DNA of 64,000 nucleotides from a virus. The position numbers and the translations under genes were made by a program. Shown here one piece after another: positions 6,645-25,139 of the stretch. Each line of letters opens with the position of its first letter. Position 1 is the stretch's first letter. The notes under the pieces are model-generated. The model saw nothing but the letters and a program-made list of their open reading frames with translations. It did not search any database and was not told where the DNA came from. Where the stretch lies: IMG/VR virus record IMGVR_UViG_3300045012_000066, positions 58,464 through 122,463 of that record. One strand, written 5' to 3'.

Positions 6645-7691
6645 TTAATTTTGCCCCGCCAGAATATCGGCGTACTTGCCTTGCTGCATACGGATGTATG
6701 CGTCCGTTAGGACGACTTCAGGATGCAGCTTCACAGAGGTCCGCATGATGAGGGTGGAAACCTCGCCGTGCTTCGAGTCGAAAAGCCTCTCCGTGTACGT
6801 TGCGACGGCGGGAAAATTGGTGCGTTTGGCCACGCGTGCAAGCGTGACGGCTACGGCATACAGTTCACCGGGTGACTTCGGCAAGGCTGCCGTGCGGGGA
6901 TTCTTGAGGATATCGGCCACGTCTACCAGCGAACGATGCGCCAGCTTGAATTGCCGGTACATCTGGCCAAACGTTGCGCCCACTGCGCCCTCGATAGAGA
7001 TGCGCTCGGTCTCAGCGCTCATGCCCCATGAGTCGATATGCGAGACATGCTCCCATGTACGGGCGCAAGGACTATTGGTCAGGTCCGCAGTGGGTGTAAA
7101 GACGTGGAACGCGTCCGGGTTCAACTTCAGGAAGGCAATCAACATAGGGCTGATGCCATGCGGCAGCGCGAAGTTTTCCAGCCAGTAGTCGAGGTCAGGA
7201 ATCAGTTTCACGATAGTGACCATGCGCGACTTGACCGTTTCCAGCATGCCGCGCACGCCCGCCTTGTGCTGCCGCTCATTCGTGGCTGCAATGAGCGAGA
7301 CGCACTGCGGCAGCTTGTTATTGTGAAAAAGGTGCATGGTGGCCTTCTGCACATCCTCATTGCCTTGCGCCAAGTCGTCGAAGAACCATCCTGTATTCCT
7401 CGTCGCGGCCAGTGCCAGAGCGTGCTCGCCTATCGGCAGGAACGCGCCGCCATTGATCGGAGGCATGCCGCGCAGGTCAGGCGGTTCAATGGTTGCCGGG
7501 TACGTGGTGAGTGAGTCCCACTTCAAAAGATCGGTCAGAACGTGGTTCACGATTGCGGTCTTGCCAATGCCGGGGTCGCCCGCAATGCATACGGGTTGAC
7601 GCGCCGGGATAGCCTTCAAAAGTAGTTCAATCAGTTGCGCCGGTCCCATTGCCGGGACGGGTGTAGCGGTCTGCTGTGCGATTGCTGGCAT
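6645..7691 (-). CDS. MoxR-family AAA+ ATPase
   Basis: 348 residues. Walker A GDPGIGKT (38-45), Walker B WFFDD (102-106) and sensor-1 AATNE (135-139) are all present, with the PPDLRGMPP insertion typical of MoxR/CobS-like ATPases. It heads the three-gene cassette with the DUF3150-like and VWA-metallopeptidase genes. Such ATPases act as chaperones or chelatase motors together with a VWA partner. Preceded by CAGGAGAATG. Confidence 0.9.
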   Translation of the reverse strand: MPAIAQQTATPVPAMGPAQLIELLLKAIPARQPVCIAGDPGIGKTAIVNHVLTDLLKWDSLTTYPATIEPPDLRGMPPINGGAFLPIGEHALALAATRNTGWFFDDLAQGNEDVQKATMHLFHNNKLPQCVSLIAATNERQHKAGVRGMLETVKSRMVTIVKLIPDLDYWLENFALPHGISPMLIAFLKLNPDAFHVFTPTADLTNSPCARTWEHVSHIDSWGMSAETERISIEGAVGATFGQMYRQFKLAHRSLVDVADILKNPRTAALPKSPGELYAVAVTLARVAKRTNFPAVATYTERLFDSKHGEVSTLIMRTSVKLHPEVVLTDAYIRMQQGKYADILAGQN

Positions 7692-7734
7692 TTCATTCTC
7701 CTGTAAAGGTCTTTAGGTGCATATGCGCCTATCG

Positions 7735-7756
7735 CTTGCCTCGTATCTGAGGCAAG
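7735..7756. other. intergenic stem-loop
   Basis: CTTGCCTC-GTATCT-GAGGCAAG, a perfect 8-bp stem after the stop of the 57-residue gene. A near-palindrome AGGTGCATATGCGCCT lies beside it at 7714-7729, in the ATPase leader. Confidence 0.45.
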
Positions 7757-7775
7757 GCATAGAAGCATTTCAGGG

Positions 7776-7949
7776 TTACTTGATATAGGCATTCAGCCCG
7801 ACAATCACGGGCTTGCCGTCCACGGTTGCCGTGGTGGCGATATTCCCGCCGCTGGATGCGACGATCAGCGTCCTGCCGGTCTTGGACGGGGTTGGTTTCT
7901 GCAAAGGAATGCGGATGACTAACTCGTTTTTCTCGATTACAACTTTCAT
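7776..7949 (-). CDS. hypothetical 57-residue protein
   Basis: Begins MKVVIEKNELVIRIPLQKP and ends VIVGLNAYIK, with a GRTLIVASSGGN segment. It has a small beta-rich fold, and AGGAGAG lies upstream of ATG 7949. It is the first gene of the leftward operon. The leader just upstream carries AGGCG-AATG-CGCCT. Function unknown, though this type of protein looks familiar from other phages. Confidence 0.7.
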   Translation of the reverse strand: MKVVIEKNELVIRIPLQKPTPSKTGRTLIVASSGGNIATTATVDGKPVIVGLNAYIK

Positions 7950-9734
7950 TTTTTCTCTCCTGTAAAAGGCGAATGCGCCTATTTCAACCCTCATGCAAAG
8001 GACTGAAGTAGACACACGGTAGAGGCTAAAATCGAAGCTCTACCCGTGCCCTCTCTCCAAACTCTTATGTTTGGTTGCCCGTCTCACGTTCGCTTGCTTC
8101 GCTAGGTCTGAGGTACTTCGCCGGTCACCATCAAGCTTTCCTGTCCCTGAATCGTCGCGCCCGTCTCTATGGACTCCAGCGCTGCTGCTCGATTCAAAGC
8201 TGCTTGTCTATGCTGCCTCACGGCAGTAGATGACCCGTCCGTTTCGCTCTAACTCTCGTGGATCGGGATACGCGCCATTACAGCGCCTTTGGCCGGTGCA
8301 AACGTTGATTGCCGGTTTCAACTCATTCCGCCCGGTAACTCTGCTGACCCCTTTCTCGCCGCCCCTCGTTAGGGACTGAAAGCTCAAGGACTCCATTTCA
8401 GCTTCGGGCTATGTTGTCAAAGATTCGGTGGTCCATCTGCGCCACTAGCGCCCCCACCATGCCCGCCCCTTGGGGCGAACTCACTAAAACAACTATACAC
8501 AAGAACTCGTCAGTATGCGTACACTTGTACATAATTATTTTCGCCTCTTTATTCAAGCATTTGGAAGGTTTTCCACAGGGTGTGCCGTTGACACCTCATT
8601 ACCGAGTAGGCAAACCCGCCCCCACCTGTATCCATATATGGGGGAAAAGTTCCCACGGTACACCGGGACAGGATTACACTAGGAATGCATTTCAGAACTG
8701 GACTCGCCCCCAAGCCAAACCTTGGGGGTATTTTTTGCCCGCCGCACCTCTCCACGCGCCAGCCCGGATTAAAATCACCCTCTCAGGTACAGGGCGCAAG
8801 GAGTCATGCTTCCGGTAAGCCTAGAGACGCGGTCTCTCCGCGTCGCGGGGGTGCTCCCCGCCCGCCATGCTCCAAGCATTCGCCCGCTTGCCACGCCACG
8901 CGCTACACTGCGCCCGCCATGCCTCCGCCGCCCACCCGCCTACTCAATAGCCCGCCCGTGCGACGCCGCACAGTGCCAAGCTTTCGCTGGATGCAGGAAA
9001 GGCTTTTCGCCTCTTTCGGAGCTTCCTTTTTTTCGCGCCGCGTTTTAAAAAATTCGCGCTTGTCCAAACTGCTTTTCCTGTAGTCCACGCGTGTTCCCTG
9101 TCCCGCCAACTGTCCACCTGTCCGTCCACGCTTCGCCCGCTCAAACCCCTATAAACATTGGCTAAAATCCGATTCTCTAGATTCGGACTCCAGCCCAGCG
9201 CTACCCGCCAGCGCCCGCCCTCGATCCCGCATCTCGCCTGTCCATGTCCTCCTTGGAGGTTGTCCCGGACCCCCTGTGACGCCGTTGGCGTCAACGCCTT
9301 TTCGCCTCTCACCTTGACGCACGTAAACTCGGAGGCGCAGCTTTGGCGCAGAAAAAAAATGGCGGGAATTTTTTGGCGGAGATTTGGATAATTCCATACG
9401 AAAATTTAGCTAGAAAAATCTGTGGATTTCTACTCGCTACAAACGTCTAAGGTTACGGCGAGCTAGGCGCAGCTTAGGCGCAGCTTGTGTGATTCGTGCT
9501 ATTTACGCAGAGTGGGAGGAGTGGTAGGGGTAGTGGTGGGAGTAGTAGTAGAACCGGATACAGGGGTAGCGAGATACTTCGCCGGTCAGTTTTCCCCGAC
9601 TTCCGGGAGGCAGAAAGGGGTGTGTTAGCGACCCGAGAGGTGCTGCGACACCCTGATCTATGGAAACGGGGAAGCGAAAGTTCTCTACTACCCCTACTAC
9701 TACCACTACTCCAAGATGGGCCGGGAGGGCAAGT
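7950..9734. promoter_or_regulatory. long non-coding region between leftward and rightward operons
   Basis: About 1.8 kb with no frame that combines a ribosome site with protein-like composition. Visible elements are a 10-bp bulged hairpin (8015-8048), an inverted repeat GTACA-CT-TGTAC (8519-8530), TTGACA near 8588 without a good -10, CCATATATGG near 8629, an AT-rich stretch (9385-9430) and paired AGGCGCAG boxes. The 14-mer TACTTCGCCGGTCA occurs at 8114 and again at 9575. A purine-rich segment (about 9512-9551) is partly complementary to 9685-9712. It probably holds the divergent early promoters. Confidence 0.55.
9465..9483 (+). promoter_or_regulatory. tandem AGGCGCAG boxes
   Basis: AGGCGCAG at 9465-9472 and 9476-9483, 11 nt apart, each followed by CTT. 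A related pair lies at 9333-9340 and 9344-9351. The same pair recurs upstream of other transcription units (20717 and, inverted, 27938), so it is a probable operator. Confidence 0.5.
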
Positions 9735-10295
9735 ATGAAGCACACGCGGGCGGTGGATCAGAAATACCGGCTGCTGCGCGAAGAGGCGCGGTACAGGATG
9801 TGGGAAGGGAAGCGCCAGATGCAGGCGGTATACGAGGCCGAGATCGACGATCTGGTGAAACAGCGGCAGGCGGAGATCGACGCGTTGCCGGATTCCCCGG
9901 AGCGGGTAAGGAGCGACCCCCATCGCGAGGATCGGACGCAGCGCTATTGCGCGACCTGCGGCGGCGCGTTTCTACTGGCTACGGTCAGGAACGCCAAGCT
10001 GCTTCAGCGCGTGATTCACCTTAGGCGGACGGATACGGACAGCGAGGAAGGCTGGCACTATAAGCTGGCCGCGCTGCGCCACCCGCGCAAGAAGTACTGC
10101 TGCTATCCCTGTCAGGTGGGCCGGGAAGATGGGCACAACGCCCCTTGCTGTTTGCTGTCGGAGTTGGAAGCGGACCTGAAATACTACGAGGTGGTTGAGG
10201 GGATCGAGGTGGATCGTGAAGCGGCTGTGGCGGAGACTGTTTCCAAGCTGGGTGGCGGAGATCAGGCGGGAGAGCCGCCAGCGCACGCTGGATGA
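9735..10295 (+). CDS. zinc-binding hypothetical protein
   Basis: 186 residues from ATG 9735, chosen because CCGGGAGGG lies 7 nt upstream. A frame open from 9660 adds a low-complexity Thr/Pro stretch and lacks a site. A helical, charged N-terminus (residues 1-45) precedes two Cys pairs (YCATCGG and YCCYPC) about 45 residues apart, suggesting a zinc ribbon with a long insertion. First gene of the rightward early operon. Confidence 0.65.
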   Translation: MKHTRAVDQKYRLLREEARYRMWEGKRQMQAVYEAEIDDLVKQRQAEIDALPDSPERVRSDPHREDRTQRYCATCGGAFLLATVRNAKLLQRVIHLRRTDTDSEEGWHYKLAALRHPRKKYCCYPCQVGREDGHNAPCCLLSELEADLKYYEVVEGIEVDREAAVAETVSKLGGGDQAGEPPAHAG

Positions 10296-10416
10296 ATTGA
10301 AGGCGTTTTCCACCCATCAGCCGATTGAGGCCGGGGTGGGCGTGGATGTGGAGCGGGCCTATTGGCTGATGAGGCTGGTGATGCGGCAGGAGTGGGTAAA
10401 GCGGGCGGGACGATGA
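10216..10416 (+). CDS. small basic hypothetical protein, overlaps previous gene
   Basis: Reading from GTG 10216 (GAGG upstream) gives 66 residues, very basic at the N-terminus (VKRLWRRLF) and helical after. It overlaps the 3' end of the previous gene by 80 nt. GTG 10252 is an alternative start. Its stop overlaps the next start (ATGA), as is usual in this operon, which supports translation. Confidence 0.45.
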   Translation: MKRLWRRLFPSWVAEIRRESRQRTLDELKAFSTHQPIEAGVGVDVERAYWLMRLVMRQEWVKRAGR

Positions 10417-10688
10417 CCAACAAGGTGCGTGGCGCGAAACCACGACCGGCTCTTCAACAGGTAGCCAACGATTCTATTACCGACGCCGAGTGGCTGGTGG
10501 CGCTTCTGAAGAATAGCGGCTACTCGCCCTGCCGCGCCATCCACGCGCTGCTGAGCGCCATTGTCGTGATCACCATCGGGCAGAAGCAGGAAGAGATACT
10601 CAGCGAGCCGCTGGATGAACTGGTGGGGCATTTTGCCGCGCTGCGCGAATACGAGATCGAACACGGGCCGAAACAACGAGTGCAATGA
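10413..10688 (+). CDS. hypothetical protein upstream of the repeat array
   Basis: 91 residues from ATG 10413, overlapping the previous stop as ATGA. Helical throughout, with a hydrophobic helix (AIHALLSAIVVITIG) near residues 40-55 and an acidic C-terminus. It is the last gene before the alternating repeat array, 29 nt away. It shows no Nop-domain signature that I can recognise. Confidence 0.6.
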   Translation: MTNKVRGAKPRPALQQVANDSITDAEWLVALLKNSGYSPCRAIHALLSAIVVITIGQKQEEILSEPLDELVGHFAALREYEIEHGPKQRVQ

Positions 10689-10717
10689 TGGAAATGCTTG
10701 ACAGCCATAAATACAGC

Positions 10718-11178
10718 GAGTGCCAAAACAAGAGAGTGAACCATCCGGTGTGAGAGTACCAAAGATATGGAGTGAACCAATCGTTGTGAGAGTACCGGAG
10801 AACGTGAGTGAACCAAAATAGAAGCGAGTACCAGAGGTCTTGAGTGAACCAAAGAAAGAGAGCGTGCCACTAAGTATGCGTGAACCAACTCCAGCAAGAG
10901 TGCCAAGGCGGGGGAGTGAACCGATAAGCATGAGCGTACCAAGAACCGGGAGTGAACCAGAATACTTGCGAGTGCCAAAGGGTTTGAGTGAACCACGGTA
11001 GATGCGAGCACCAGTAAAGTGGAGTGAGCCAAGTCAAGTGTGAGCACCAACTGCTCAAGAGCGAACCAGATCAGGAGCGAGTGCCAATTTAAGTGTGTGA
11101 ACCATCCGTGTTGTGAGTGCCACGGTAGTGGAGTGAACCCAGTAAGAGATGAGAGTGCCAAGGATAGCGAGTGAACCA
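10718..11178 (+). repeat. TIGR-like array: alternating dual repeats with 36-nt period
   Basis: Thirteen copies of repeat B (GAGTRCCA, 8 nt) alternate with thirteen copies of repeat A (GAGTGAACCA, 10 nt). B starts at 10718, then every 36 nt to 11042, then 11079, 11115 and 11153. A starts at 10734, then every 36 nt to 11022, then 11059, 11095, 11131 and 11169. Seven A copies are exact and six differ by one base. Spacers are 8 nt after B (9 once) and 10 nt after A (12 once), and all appear different. An alternating two-repeat, two-spacer unit of 36 nt is the published hallmark of TIGR arrays, whose tigRNAs are 36 nt with two spacers and bind Nop-domain Tas proteins. The strand transcribed is inferred from the flanking rightward operon. 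TTGACA (10698-10703) lies just upstream, without an obvious -10. Confidence 0.85.
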
Positions 11179-11181
11179 ATG

Positions 11182-11703
11182 ATGAAGTGCCTGAAGTGTG
11201 GACATGAGTGGGAGCCGAAGGTGGAACAGCCAGCGCGGTGTCCCAACTGCAAGACGGCGACCTACATGTTTCCTCCGGGCGTGGGCTTCGGCAGGGCCGT
11301 GCCCCGCGTCAGCGAAGGGGATCAGGGCGTCTACAACCCGCGTAGGGTGATCGCGGAGCCGAGCTTCGATCCCGATCCGAATTTTTTTCACGGCCCTCCA
11401 AATGAGGCGGTCAGCGTGCGCGAGCGGCTGGCGCAGGGCAAGACCGCCTACCCTATCGAAGAGGGCGAGGCCCTGTTCGCGCTCGACGAAAGCAAAGAGC
11501 CGGATATGGATGAACTCCGGAAAATTGCTTTAGGTGAGTTGGACCCCACCGGCTACAAGCGCCCGCCTATGAGAGAGCCGCCTGTCGGGATGTGCGAATA
11601 CCGCGAGCTTGACCCGGAGTCGAATGAGTGGGTCTACTGTTCGCTGCCGGTGCATGATCCCAAGAAGCAGCGCCATGTGCCGGGACGGAGGGAAAGCGCA
11701 TGA
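11182..11703 (+). CDS. zinc-ribbon protein directly after the array
   Basis: 173 residues from ATG 11182 (ATG 11179 is directly adjacent). An N-terminal zinc ribbon, CLKCGHEW...CPNCK (residues 3-24), is followed by a Pro/Gly-rich middle, an acidic helix and a C-terminal Cys/His segment (CEYREL...CSLPVHD). The final A repeat of the array (11169-11178) ends at the base before the start, so the gene's leader is array sequence. It overlaps the next gene by 4 nt. Function unknown. Confidence 0.7.
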   Translation: MKCLKCGHEWEPKVEQPARCPNCKTATYMFPPGVGFGRAVPRVSEGDQGVYNPRRVIAEPSFDPDPNFFHGPPNEAVSVRERLAQGKTAYPIEEGEALFALDESKEPDMDELRKIALGELDPTGYKRPPMREPPVGMCEYRELDPESNEWVYCSLPVHDPKKQRHVPGRRESA

Positions 11704-19595: not shown

Positions 19596-20381
19596 TTATT
19601 TCTTAGTCTTTTTCTTAGCTCTTGTGACCCTTGCGACTGGCTCCGGTTCCGGCTCTGGCTCAGGTTCTGGTTCAGGCTCTTCTTCTTCCGGCTCTTCAGG
19701 TTCCTCTGGCTCTGGCTCTTCTGGTTCCGGTTCTGGTTCCGGTTCTGGTTCTGGCTCAGCCGGTGGTTCCGGTTCAGGCTCTGGCTCAGGTTCAGGCTCC
19801 GGCTCTGGCTCAGGTTCAGGTTCTGGTTCAGGCTCAGGCTCAGGTTCAGGCTCCGGCTCTGGCTCAGGTTCAGGTTCTGGTTCAGGCTCCGGCTCAGGTT
19901 CAGGCGTTGGCGGTTCCGGTATAGGAAGCCCAGCCAGCGTCAGCAACTGGACGTATCCCTGTTGCACCATGGCGTCTAACTCTTCCTGTGTATGCTGGCC
20001 AACCCGCACGCGTTCGTCGCCGATGTCAACCGCTTCCCCCGGAGCCGCATCCCCGGATTGCATACTGGGCAAGGAAACCCAGTAGAACGTTTGTTCGTTG
20101 ATGCTGATCCGCCAGATGGCGCAGTACCCAATCTCACCGTCCGGGACATGGCCAAGCTGCATCATCCCCCATTCGTCATAGCCAGCGATATCCGCCAGCC
20201 AGCCGCGAAAGCTGGCACGCTGCATCTCCAGTTGTTCACCGGGAGCCACACCTAGTGCTACGAGAATTGCATTGGAGTTCGGCCTGCCTTCCTCCATGCG
20301 CATGGTGGCGTCTTGAATCTTGAGCATGTCTTCGCGACGCATTGCTTCTGCGAACTCTTCCAGTGTTGCGACCTGCTGCAT
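19596..20381 (-). CDS. protein with long Pro-Glu repeat tail
   Basis: 261 residues from ATG 20381 (GTGGAGG upstream; a GTG four codons earlier is weaker). Residues 1-155 form an ordinary globular domain ([13 protein letters not shown]...[10 protein letters not shown]). The rest is about 90 residues of Glu-Pro dipeptide repeats, with a lysine-rich end (RAKKKTKK). Such PE/EP rods act as stiff spacers in surface or TonB-like proteins. It lies on the strand opposite its neighbours and may be a late-acquired cassette. Confidence 0.7.
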
Positions 20382-20430
20382 ATAAACCTCCACTGCCTAT
20401 AGTAGGTCTAGAAGCTAACTTATCCGACAC

Positions 20431-22971: not shown

Positions 22972-22985
22972 TCTATTTGCGGCTC

Positions 22986-25139
22986 ATGTACTCCAACAGG
23001 ACCATCGTCGATAACTTGGAGCAGTTCGAAGCGCAGGAACGGTGGATGCCTATCTACCATACCTACGACGAGGTGCGCGAGTTCATCGCCTACATCGACT
23101 CGCTGACCAAGATCGAGTCGAACTCCAAGACCAGCTATATCTCCGTGGTGAAGCCGATCAGCGGCCAGCGCCAGAAGGACATTGCCCGCTGGGTGGAAAA
23201 CGAGCAGGTGTTATGCGGCTTCGACAGCAGCTACTGGGAGCAGAACTACGCGTGGGTCTGCGACGAAAAAGGGCAGATTTTTAAATTTCATAATCGCAAA
23301 TCGCAGGATGTGTTTGACGCTGTCATCGCCGACTTCGATGAGCGGCAGGTCTCTATCGAATTACTAATCCTGAAGGCACGGCAGGTGGGCATCTCCACCA
23401 AGACGGCGCTGAAATTTATTCACCGGCTGATGTTCATCCCGCACACGCAGGCGGTGATGGCGTCGGTGATGAAAGAAAAGTCGGAACTGATCGGGCGCAT
23501 CCTCGATACCGCGTACAATCGCTCGCCATGGTGGCTGGTGCCGCGCCGCATGCCGAAGCGGTCGTTCGACAACGGCTCCATCCTCTCCATTCAATCCGGT
23601 ATGCAGGCCACTGGACTGGCGCAAGGCTGGACGCCCACCTGCGTCCATGTTTCCGAGCTTGCTGACGTTCCGAATCCCAAGGTCACCATCGAGGAAGGAT
23701 TGTTCCGCGCCGCGCACTCATCCAGAAACCTGTTCATGGTTCTCGAAGGAACGGGTGGCGGCAACACCGGATGGCTGGCGGAGACATGGAGAGCGGCGAA
23801 GGCGGATTGGCCCAAGGGGCTGGCTCGTCTGTTCCCTATGTTTATCCCTTGGCCCATGTGCCCGGACATCTATCCGGAGCCGGACTGGCTCAGAAAATTC
23901 CCCGTGCCCGCCGAGTTCGAGAGCCGCCAGATGCACGACATCACGCGGAAACACGTGACCAAGTGTGAGTCGTATATCCGTAACACGCCCTACCTCGCCA
24001 AAATCGCTGGCACTGGCTGGCGCATGCCGGTCGAGCAGAAGTGGTTCTGGCAGTTCTACTACGACGCGGCCTGCAAGAACCACACGCAGAAGACGTGGTC
24101 TGCGCAGATGCCCGCCGACGATTATGAGGCGCTGACCGGCGTGCATGACACCGTCTTCGATCCCGAAGTGCTGGCCGAGGTGGAAGACCGTATCTACGAA
24201 GTCGAATCCGACGACTACAAGCGCAAGCGCAAACAGCCGGTCGAGATATACGCCATCACCGGCCACGATGTAGACGAGGTCTTCTACCCGCCAGAAGAGC
24301 GCATTGACTGGGAAAAAGAAGTGGTACGCGTCGAGTGGGACTCATATCGCGGCCACCACTACGAGTGGGACATGATTCCACTGCTCACGCTGGACGAAGA
24401 CAACGAGCGGAACACTCTGGACTACCTGCTGATCTACGAATGGCCCAAGAGGGGACAGCGCTACTCCTGCGGGATCGACACGGCAGACGGGCTGGGCAAA
24501 GAAGACGAAGAGCGCACCTGTCTGTCGGTGGCCAAAAACCGCTTTGGGGGAGACTGCGACCAGCAGGTCGCCGAGCTTACGTCGAATCGTATCAACTCCG
24601 CGCAGGTCGTCGCCTTTGCCGCCTGCGTAGGAGCGCTGTACGGGCCAGCCTGCCCGGATGCGAGGGGTATGAAGTACTGCATCGAGCAGATTCAGGGGCC
24701 GGGAGACACCTGCCAACACCAGTTGAAGATGATGGGCTTCTTCAATCACCATATCCCGCGCCGTTACGACTCGAAAAAGATCAGAGACGAGTCATCGAGA
24801 AAAGAAGGCTTCTATGCCAGCACGTGGTCCATTCCCCTGCTCATGACGCGATTCGTCGAGGCAGTGAATGGCGGCTGGTACGAGCCACGGTCGAAGTGGC
24901 TCATCGAGGAGTTGCGCACGCTGGAGCGCCACGTCACTACCAACAAATCAAAAATGGAGCACCAGACCGGCAAGTTTGATGATCGCGTACGCGGCGCGGC
25001 GATGTCGTACTTCACCGCGCACGACATGGACGTGCTGACGGATCGGGCACAGAAACGCTACGCGCTGCCGGTGAACAAGCGGCCCGTGGCCTACAAAGCG
25101 GCGTGTAGCGCCAGTCGGGCATCAGTGGGGAATTGGTGA
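22986..25139 (+). CDS. terL: terminase large subunit
   Basis: 717 residues from ATG 22986. KARQVGIST (about 130-138) is the Walker A variant of large terminases. CVHVSELADV (219-228) supplies Walker B with the catalytic Glu, and GIDTADGLG begins the C-terminal RNase H-like nuclease (DxAxG metal site). The enzyme powers DNA translocation into the capsid and cuts the concatemer. No strong ribosome site precedes 22986; an in-frame ATG at 23046 behind AGGAACGG is a possible alternative. Confidence 0.9.
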   Translation: MYSNRTIVDNLEQFEAQERWMPIYHTYDEVREFIAYIDSLTKIESNSKTSYISVVKPISGQRQKDIARWVENEQVLCGFDSSYWEQNYAWVCDEKGQIFKFHNRKSQDVFDAVIADFDERQVSIELLILKARQVGISTKTALKFIHRLMFIPHTQAVMASVMKEKSELIGRILDTAYNRSPWWLVPRRMPKRSFDNGSILSIQSGMQATGLAQGWTPTCVHVSELADVPNPKVTIEEGLFRAAHSSRNLFMVLEGTGGGNTGWLAETWRAAKADWPKGLARLFPMFIPWPMCPDIYPEPDWLRKFPVPAEFESRQMHDITRKHVTKCESYIRNTPYLAKIAGTGWRMPVEQKWFWQFYYDAACKNHTQKTWSAQMPADDYEALTGVHDTVFDPEVLAEVEDRIYEVESDDYKRKRKQPVEIYAITGHDVDEVFYPPEERIDWEKEVVRVEWDSYRGHHYEWDMIPLLTLDEDNERNTLDYLLIYEWPKRGQRYSCGIDTADGLGKEDEERTCLSVAKNRFGGDCDQQVAELTSNRINSAQVVAFAACVGALYGPACPDARGMKYCIEQIQGPGDTCQHQLKMMGFFNHHIPRRYDSKKIRDESSRKEGFYASTWSIPLLMTRFVEAVNGGWYEPRSKWLIEELRTLERHVTTNKSKMEHQTGKFDDRVRGAAMSYFTAHDMDVLTDRAQKRYALPVNKRPVAYKAACSASRASVGNW

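Follow-up and report, generated by a model that had tools for sequence, protein, structure and literature searches.

A Probable Satellite TIGR Array Far From tasA in a Phage Genome and Turnover of Its Spacers Between Sister Phages

Results

The virus record IMGVR_UViG_3300045012_000066 (122,463 bases) carries, in its second half, a short array of two alternating repeats (array 3) that belongs with near certainty to the TIGR-Tas family. TIGR-Tas systems are a recently described means of binding DNA under RNA guidance in which each RNA carries two short guides. The window, the whole stretch of 64,000 nt that was analyzed, corresponds to bases 58464-122463 of the record. Array 3 lies on the plus strand at 10716..11178 and has 13 units, each with an edge repeat (GNGAGYRCCA), spacer A, a loop repeat (GAGTGAACCA), and spacer B. 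With all units aligned, the edge (10 nt), spacer A (8 nt), loop (10 nt), and spacer B (8 nt) add up to a period of 36 nt.

Direct reading and a pattern scan place the starts of the loop repeats at 10734, 10770, 10806, 10842, 10878, 10914, 10950, 10986, 11022, 11059, 11095, 11131, and 11169. Seven of the 13 are exact copies of GAGTGAACCA and six have one mismatch. The alternation of 13 edge and 13 loop repeats claimed in the original prediction is thus borne out, but other details of it needed revision. Several copies depart from its edge repeat, GAGTRCCA (GCGTGCCA, GCGTACCA, GAGCACCA, and GAGTACCG), and the conserved edge spans 10 nt, G-N-GAG-Y-R-CCA, which sets the start of the array at 10716. 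An exact 36-nt period over the first ten copies is correct for the edge (followed by steps of 37, 36, and 38 nt) but not for the loop, whose steps are 36 nt up to the ninth copy and then 37, 36, 36, and 38 nt. Spacers A and B are not 8 and 10 nt long; both are 8 nt, rarely 9-10 nt. The 13th spacer B may extend into 11179-11186 and overlap the start codon of the downstream gene.

The pattern is far from what base composition would produce. Sites of the GAGTGAACCA type number 15 in the whole window versus 3.4 expected, and none of 100 shuffles had 15 or more. Allowing at most one mismatch per repeat, an edge followed 8 nt later by a loop was found in 12 array 3 units versus none in 20 first-order Markov sequences of the window. 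Self-match is 0.55 at a lag of 36 and 0.21-0.33 at other lags.

The 122 kb phage contig appears complete and circularly permuted, because 182 bp at one end recur at the other with 99.5% identity and the two ends are continuous in the record of a sister phage (G025). Elsewhere on the contig (L001), in its first half, are two larger arrays with the same repeats as array 3: array 1 at about 6710-8756, with at least 52 loop repeats, and array 2 at 9654-10639, with at least 27. In total, the contig has about 92 loop repeats of one family in three arrays. Arrays 1 and 2 are much longer than the 5-15 units most common among TIGR arrays (PMC12045711). Exactly between them sits tasA (contig 8758-9651; 297 amino acids); a second Tas gene was not found on the contig. 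The start codon of tasA is inside an edge-like repeat, GATGAGCACCA (L001 8748-8770), so array and coding sequence overlap. Arrays 1 and 2 adjoin tasA, whereas array 3 is ~59 kb away with no Tas gene nearby. Array 3 is assigned to the TIGR system because its repeats are identical to those of arrays 1 and 2, and, lacking a nearby Tas gene, it would have to be served in trans.

The product of tasA matches NCBIfam NF052498 (TIGR_Tas_endo, "TIGR-Tas system RNA-guided endonuclease") with 184.9 bits against a cut-off of 100. The nearest solved proteins are TasR (PDB 9MTY; phmmer E 8e-15) and TasH (E 1e-6), and a 17-sequence Tas profile ranks TasR (3e-24) and TasH (1e-13) ahead of IS621 (4e-5). Pfam gives only Transposase_20, the IS110 RNA-binding domain (E 8e-5), and PHROG 4285 labels the protein a transposase. 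A search of the contig with Pfam Nop (PF01798) returned no match, which is misleading since the protein is too diverged for that model. An AlphaFold model (pLDDT 82, pTM 0.81) is all helical from residue 8, and its ten best PDB matches are all TasH or TasR chains. The aligned core starts near residue 32-62, versus 124-140 in TasR. With a core this near the N terminus and an all-helical model, the protein has no nuclease domain; there is neither room nor fold for RuvC or HNH. The model therefore identifies the 297-residue protein as TasA, a predicted nuclease-less Tas/Nop protein, despite the "endonuclease" in the family name.

Identification of array 3 as a TIGR array, as originally proposed, is supported by features of the locus and of the contig. 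There are two alternating repeats, unique spacers of mostly 8 nt, a 36-nt unit, and an associated Nop-domain Tas protein encoded between two larger arrays with the same repeats. Adjacency of array and tas gene is found for arrays 1 and 2 but not for array 3. Such adjacency is typical rather than defining, as TIGR arrays were searched for only within 5 kb of tas genes (PMC12045711). In the 449 units counted, edge and loop repeats share the form G-N-G ... CCA, that is, a box D-like 5' end and a box C 3' end; CCA is also box C of TasR (PMC12045711). Edge repeats fit a fixed 10-nt motif across arrays, a length imposed by the parser. Loop repeats vary from 10 to 13 nt, with an A-rich inner part (TGAA, AAAA, GGAA) between a conserved GAGTG start and CCA end. 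A variable, A-rich interior is what the structure of TasR predicts for a loop repeat (PMC12045711). A CRISPR array was considered and rejected: these are two kinds of 10-nt repeats with 8-nt spacers, versus a single 25-36-nt repeat with longer spacers.

The repeats are not confined to this phage, as had been suggested, but occur in ~25 other viral contigs. The exact dual-repeat pattern is present on 31 viral contig stretches, mostly true arrays. Among viral records identified by the repeat or by Tas, 23 of 27 have a Tas homologue, which often adjoins an array, and arrays away from tasA are also present in five records (G007, G016, G019, G023, and G025). Records related by capsid or terminase, some of which are fragments, add a further Tas in only 1 of 35 cases, suggesting a patchy distribution across this group of phages. 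Six matches to the repeat pattern in genome contigs are single matches rather than arrays and were discarded. Tas homologues of G015 (L130), G016 (L101), G019 (L088), and G023 (L098) have insertions of ~30-60 amino acids in the Nop core, at differing positions.

Spacer turnover was examined by comparing this phage (G000) with G025, both metagenome assemblies. Where aligned, the two are mostly 94-98% identical, with some stretches lower, and their TasA proteins are identical. G025 has three arrays at the same places. Its array 3 is at the same gene junction and has 13 units, with repeats kept and spacers changed. The phages have in common 39 of 90 A spacers and 41 of 87 B spacers (~45%), but only 19 of 85 A+B pairs (22%), close to the 17 pairs expected under independent turnover (0.43 x 0.47 x 85). 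Units are gained and lost whole, with breaks mostly at loop repeats; in one example, loop GAGTGCCAACCA is joined to spacer B of the next unit.

Neighboring spacers joined by an edge are kept more often than those joined by a loop (37 of 87 versus 23 of 85, p=0.04). In a second phage group, the counts are 12 of 17 and 3 of 14 (p=0.01), in comparisons that partly overlap. When counts are restricted to cases in which both spacers survive in G000 and G025, the difference is not significant (37 of 42 versus 23 of 32, p=0.13). The simplest reading is that recombination between the better-conserved loop repeats re-pairs half-guides, with the caveat that strain mixing in metagenome assemblies could imitate re-pairing. 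Across all arrays, spacers on the array strand are A-rich and C-poor (A 0.35 and C 0.155, versus 0.22 and 0.28 in the genome), which is not what capture of DNA from random strands would give.

Immediate neighbors of array 3 provide context. Upstream on the plus strand is an open reading frame of 108 amino acids (10362..10688) that has no family match and is 99% identical in G025. Downstream, also on the plus strand, is one of 173 amino acids (11182..11703) with a zinc-ribbon-like N terminus and a start that abuts the last loop repeat. PADLOC recognizes neither TasA nor the genes on either side of array 3, and an Rfam search likewise returned no matches. Elsewhere, tRNA genes of the phage are clustered (Ser, Ser, Glu, and Lys), with an additional tRNA-Trp (L001 18975-19328 and L002 4788-4862). 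A long in-frame PEPEPE repeat (window 19645-19905) is within a minus-strand open reading frame at 19596-20393. The terminase (window 22977-25139) is nearest, among sequenced phages, to those of two Tunturiibacter phages at 30% identity, a likeness that may be a weak hint of the host group.

Discussion

We consider it very probable that array 3 is a satellite array of a phage-encoded TIGR-TasA system. Its biological role is inferred from related systems. Array 3 would be transcribed, probably along with the surrounding plus-strand genes, and, going by TIGR-Tas biochemistry (Faure et al. 2025, PMC12045711), the transcript would be cut inside edge repeats to yield 36-nt tigRNAs. That the edge rather than the loop is cut is suggested by the likeness of the loop repeat here to that of TasR. 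Each tigRNA is predicted to load in trans on a TasA dimer through its two ends, where CCA serves as box C and GNG as the equivalent of box D. Spacer A would then pair with one strand of an adjoining 16-bp site and spacer B with the other strand. The complex would open and bend target DNA without cleaving it. The most likely effect, which we suggest with less assurance, may be to keep the host or a competing mobile element from being replicated or transcribed; authors of the TIGR paper made a similar guess (PMC12045711).

Several results weigh against this reading. No consensus promoter or terminator was found near array 3. Naked 36-mers fold no better than shuffles, and mutual information between repeat positions mainly reflects alignment-shift effects, with clear edge-edge covariation not seen. 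Absence of a folding advantage in naked 36-mers would be anticipated for an RNA that needs the protein in order to fold. The box D equivalent is GNG, versus UG in TasR, although box D may differ from the UG of TasR (PMC12045711).

Targets also proved elusive. The half-site search covered ~3.5 Mb of DNA from this phage and its relatives. Adjoining A and B half-sites with 0-2 mismatches at offsets of -30 to +30 are not enriched in own and related contigs, nor in capsid or terminase relatives or in 1.5 Mb from relatives that lack TIGR arrays. At offset -8, the IS621-like order of half-sites, ten units match with one mismatch versus a mean of 6.1 (standard deviation 2.3) in one set, and ten versus 6.5 (standard deviation 2.5) in another, values that are slightly high but not convincing. 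Two 16-17-bp targets derived from conserved array 3 units have 0 and 14 scattered matches across all viral contigs, approximately as expected by chance. If pairs are constantly re-formed, few spacer pairs would match any one site.

Other explanations of array 3 differ in how much of the evidence they accommodate. Its distance from tasA, substitutions in the CCA of two loops (CCG and CCC), and several steps off by 1-2 nt at the 3' end might fit an unprocessed and unused copy of the main arrays, either a decaying relic or a landing copy. However, almost every one of the 13 units retains its boxes in position, repeats at the same junction in G025 are maintained while spacers changed, and arrays away from tasA are also present in G007, G016, G019, and G023, so we regard a relic as quite unlikely. 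Short tandem repeats in a phage genome could also be iterons or protein-binding sites, as in an origin or partition site, rather than a source of guide RNA. Two alternating repeats with unique spacers fixed at 8 nt, a Tas gene between two arrays, and a plan the same as that of a published TIGR locus make this very improbable. Hardly credible is a coding repeat: the minus strand of G000 has one frame without stops across array 3, an open reading frame of 219 amino acids, but its counterpart in G025 is interrupted by a stop, no frame of arrays 1 and 2 is free of them, and the 37- and 38-nt steps break the frame.

A further alternative accepts the TIGR array and concerns only where its transcript is cut. 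The mature RNA could be centered on the edge and cut inside GAGTGAACCA, in which case each guide would combine a spacer B with the spacer A that comes after it. Better retention of B-edge-A than A-loop-B neighbors between sister phages and in the second group is in its favor, but the better-conserved loop repeats may simply recombine more, and the A-rich, length-variable interior of the loop fits the loop repeat of TasR (PMC12045711). On balance, edge-centered RNA seems unlikely.

Returning to a satellite array with cuts in the edge, the system resembles characterized ones without duplicating any. The SpTIGR/TasH system belongs to Salicola phage CGphi29 (NC_020844), and its TasH is among the proteins that Faure et al. 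examined (PMC12045711). Its array, AAGCGAGCCA-8-AAGACAACCA-8 with a 36-nt unit, adjoins the gene. This system shares with the one here the 10+8+10+8 plan, a phage genome, and a homologous Tas/Nop protein. Both of its repeats have a 5' AAG and a 3' CCA where both repeats here have GNG and CCA; other letters differ. TasH has an N-terminal HNH nuclease, whereas TasA here has no nuclease domain, and CGphi29 has a terminator and a single array, roughly ten units long, next to the gene, rather than three arrays with ~92 units and one ~59 kb off. TaTIGR/TasR (PDB 9MTY) has a homologous Tas core, CCA as box C, and two spacers per 36-nt unit, but differs in having RuvC, 9-nt spacers rather than 8-nt ones, and UG in place of GNG. 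FpTIGR/TasA of Flavonifractor plautii (PMC12045711), likened here by description and not by sequence, also pairs a nuclease-less Nop protein with a dual-repeat array; its combined spacer is 18 nt (PMC12045711) versus 16 nt here. RNA-guided transposases of IS110/IS621 have in common with TasA the Nop/IS110 RNA-binding domain, as the Transposase_20 and IS621 profile matches indicate. TasA has neither their DEDD catalytic domain nor a bridge RNA, and multi-unit arrays are present instead.

The first description of TIGR-Tas dates from 2025 and drew mostly on metagenomes; its natural targets as well as the origin and change of its arrays are stated open questions (PMC12045711). The two apparently complete sister genomes compared here each have one TasA and three arrays that together comprise ~90 guide units, with one array far from the gene. 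Their spacers turn over far faster than flanking genes, and A and B are inherited nearly independently. We tentatively raise the possibility, to which we give somewhat less than even weight, that TIGR arrays diversify at short repeats, mainly loops, with half-guides as separately inherited, constantly re-paired modules and satellite arrays as part of one multi-array guide pool. If true, this would describe for the first time how TIGR arrays change, and most present A/B pairs would not be inherited copies of an original 16-bp target. Array searches limited to 5 kb around tas genes will miss some arrays. The class, TIGR-Tas, is known; two features here are worth following, the distance between a satellite array and its effector and a fast turnover of guides that breaks up their pairs. 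With this sister pair, array evolution and the use of guides in trans are directly testable.
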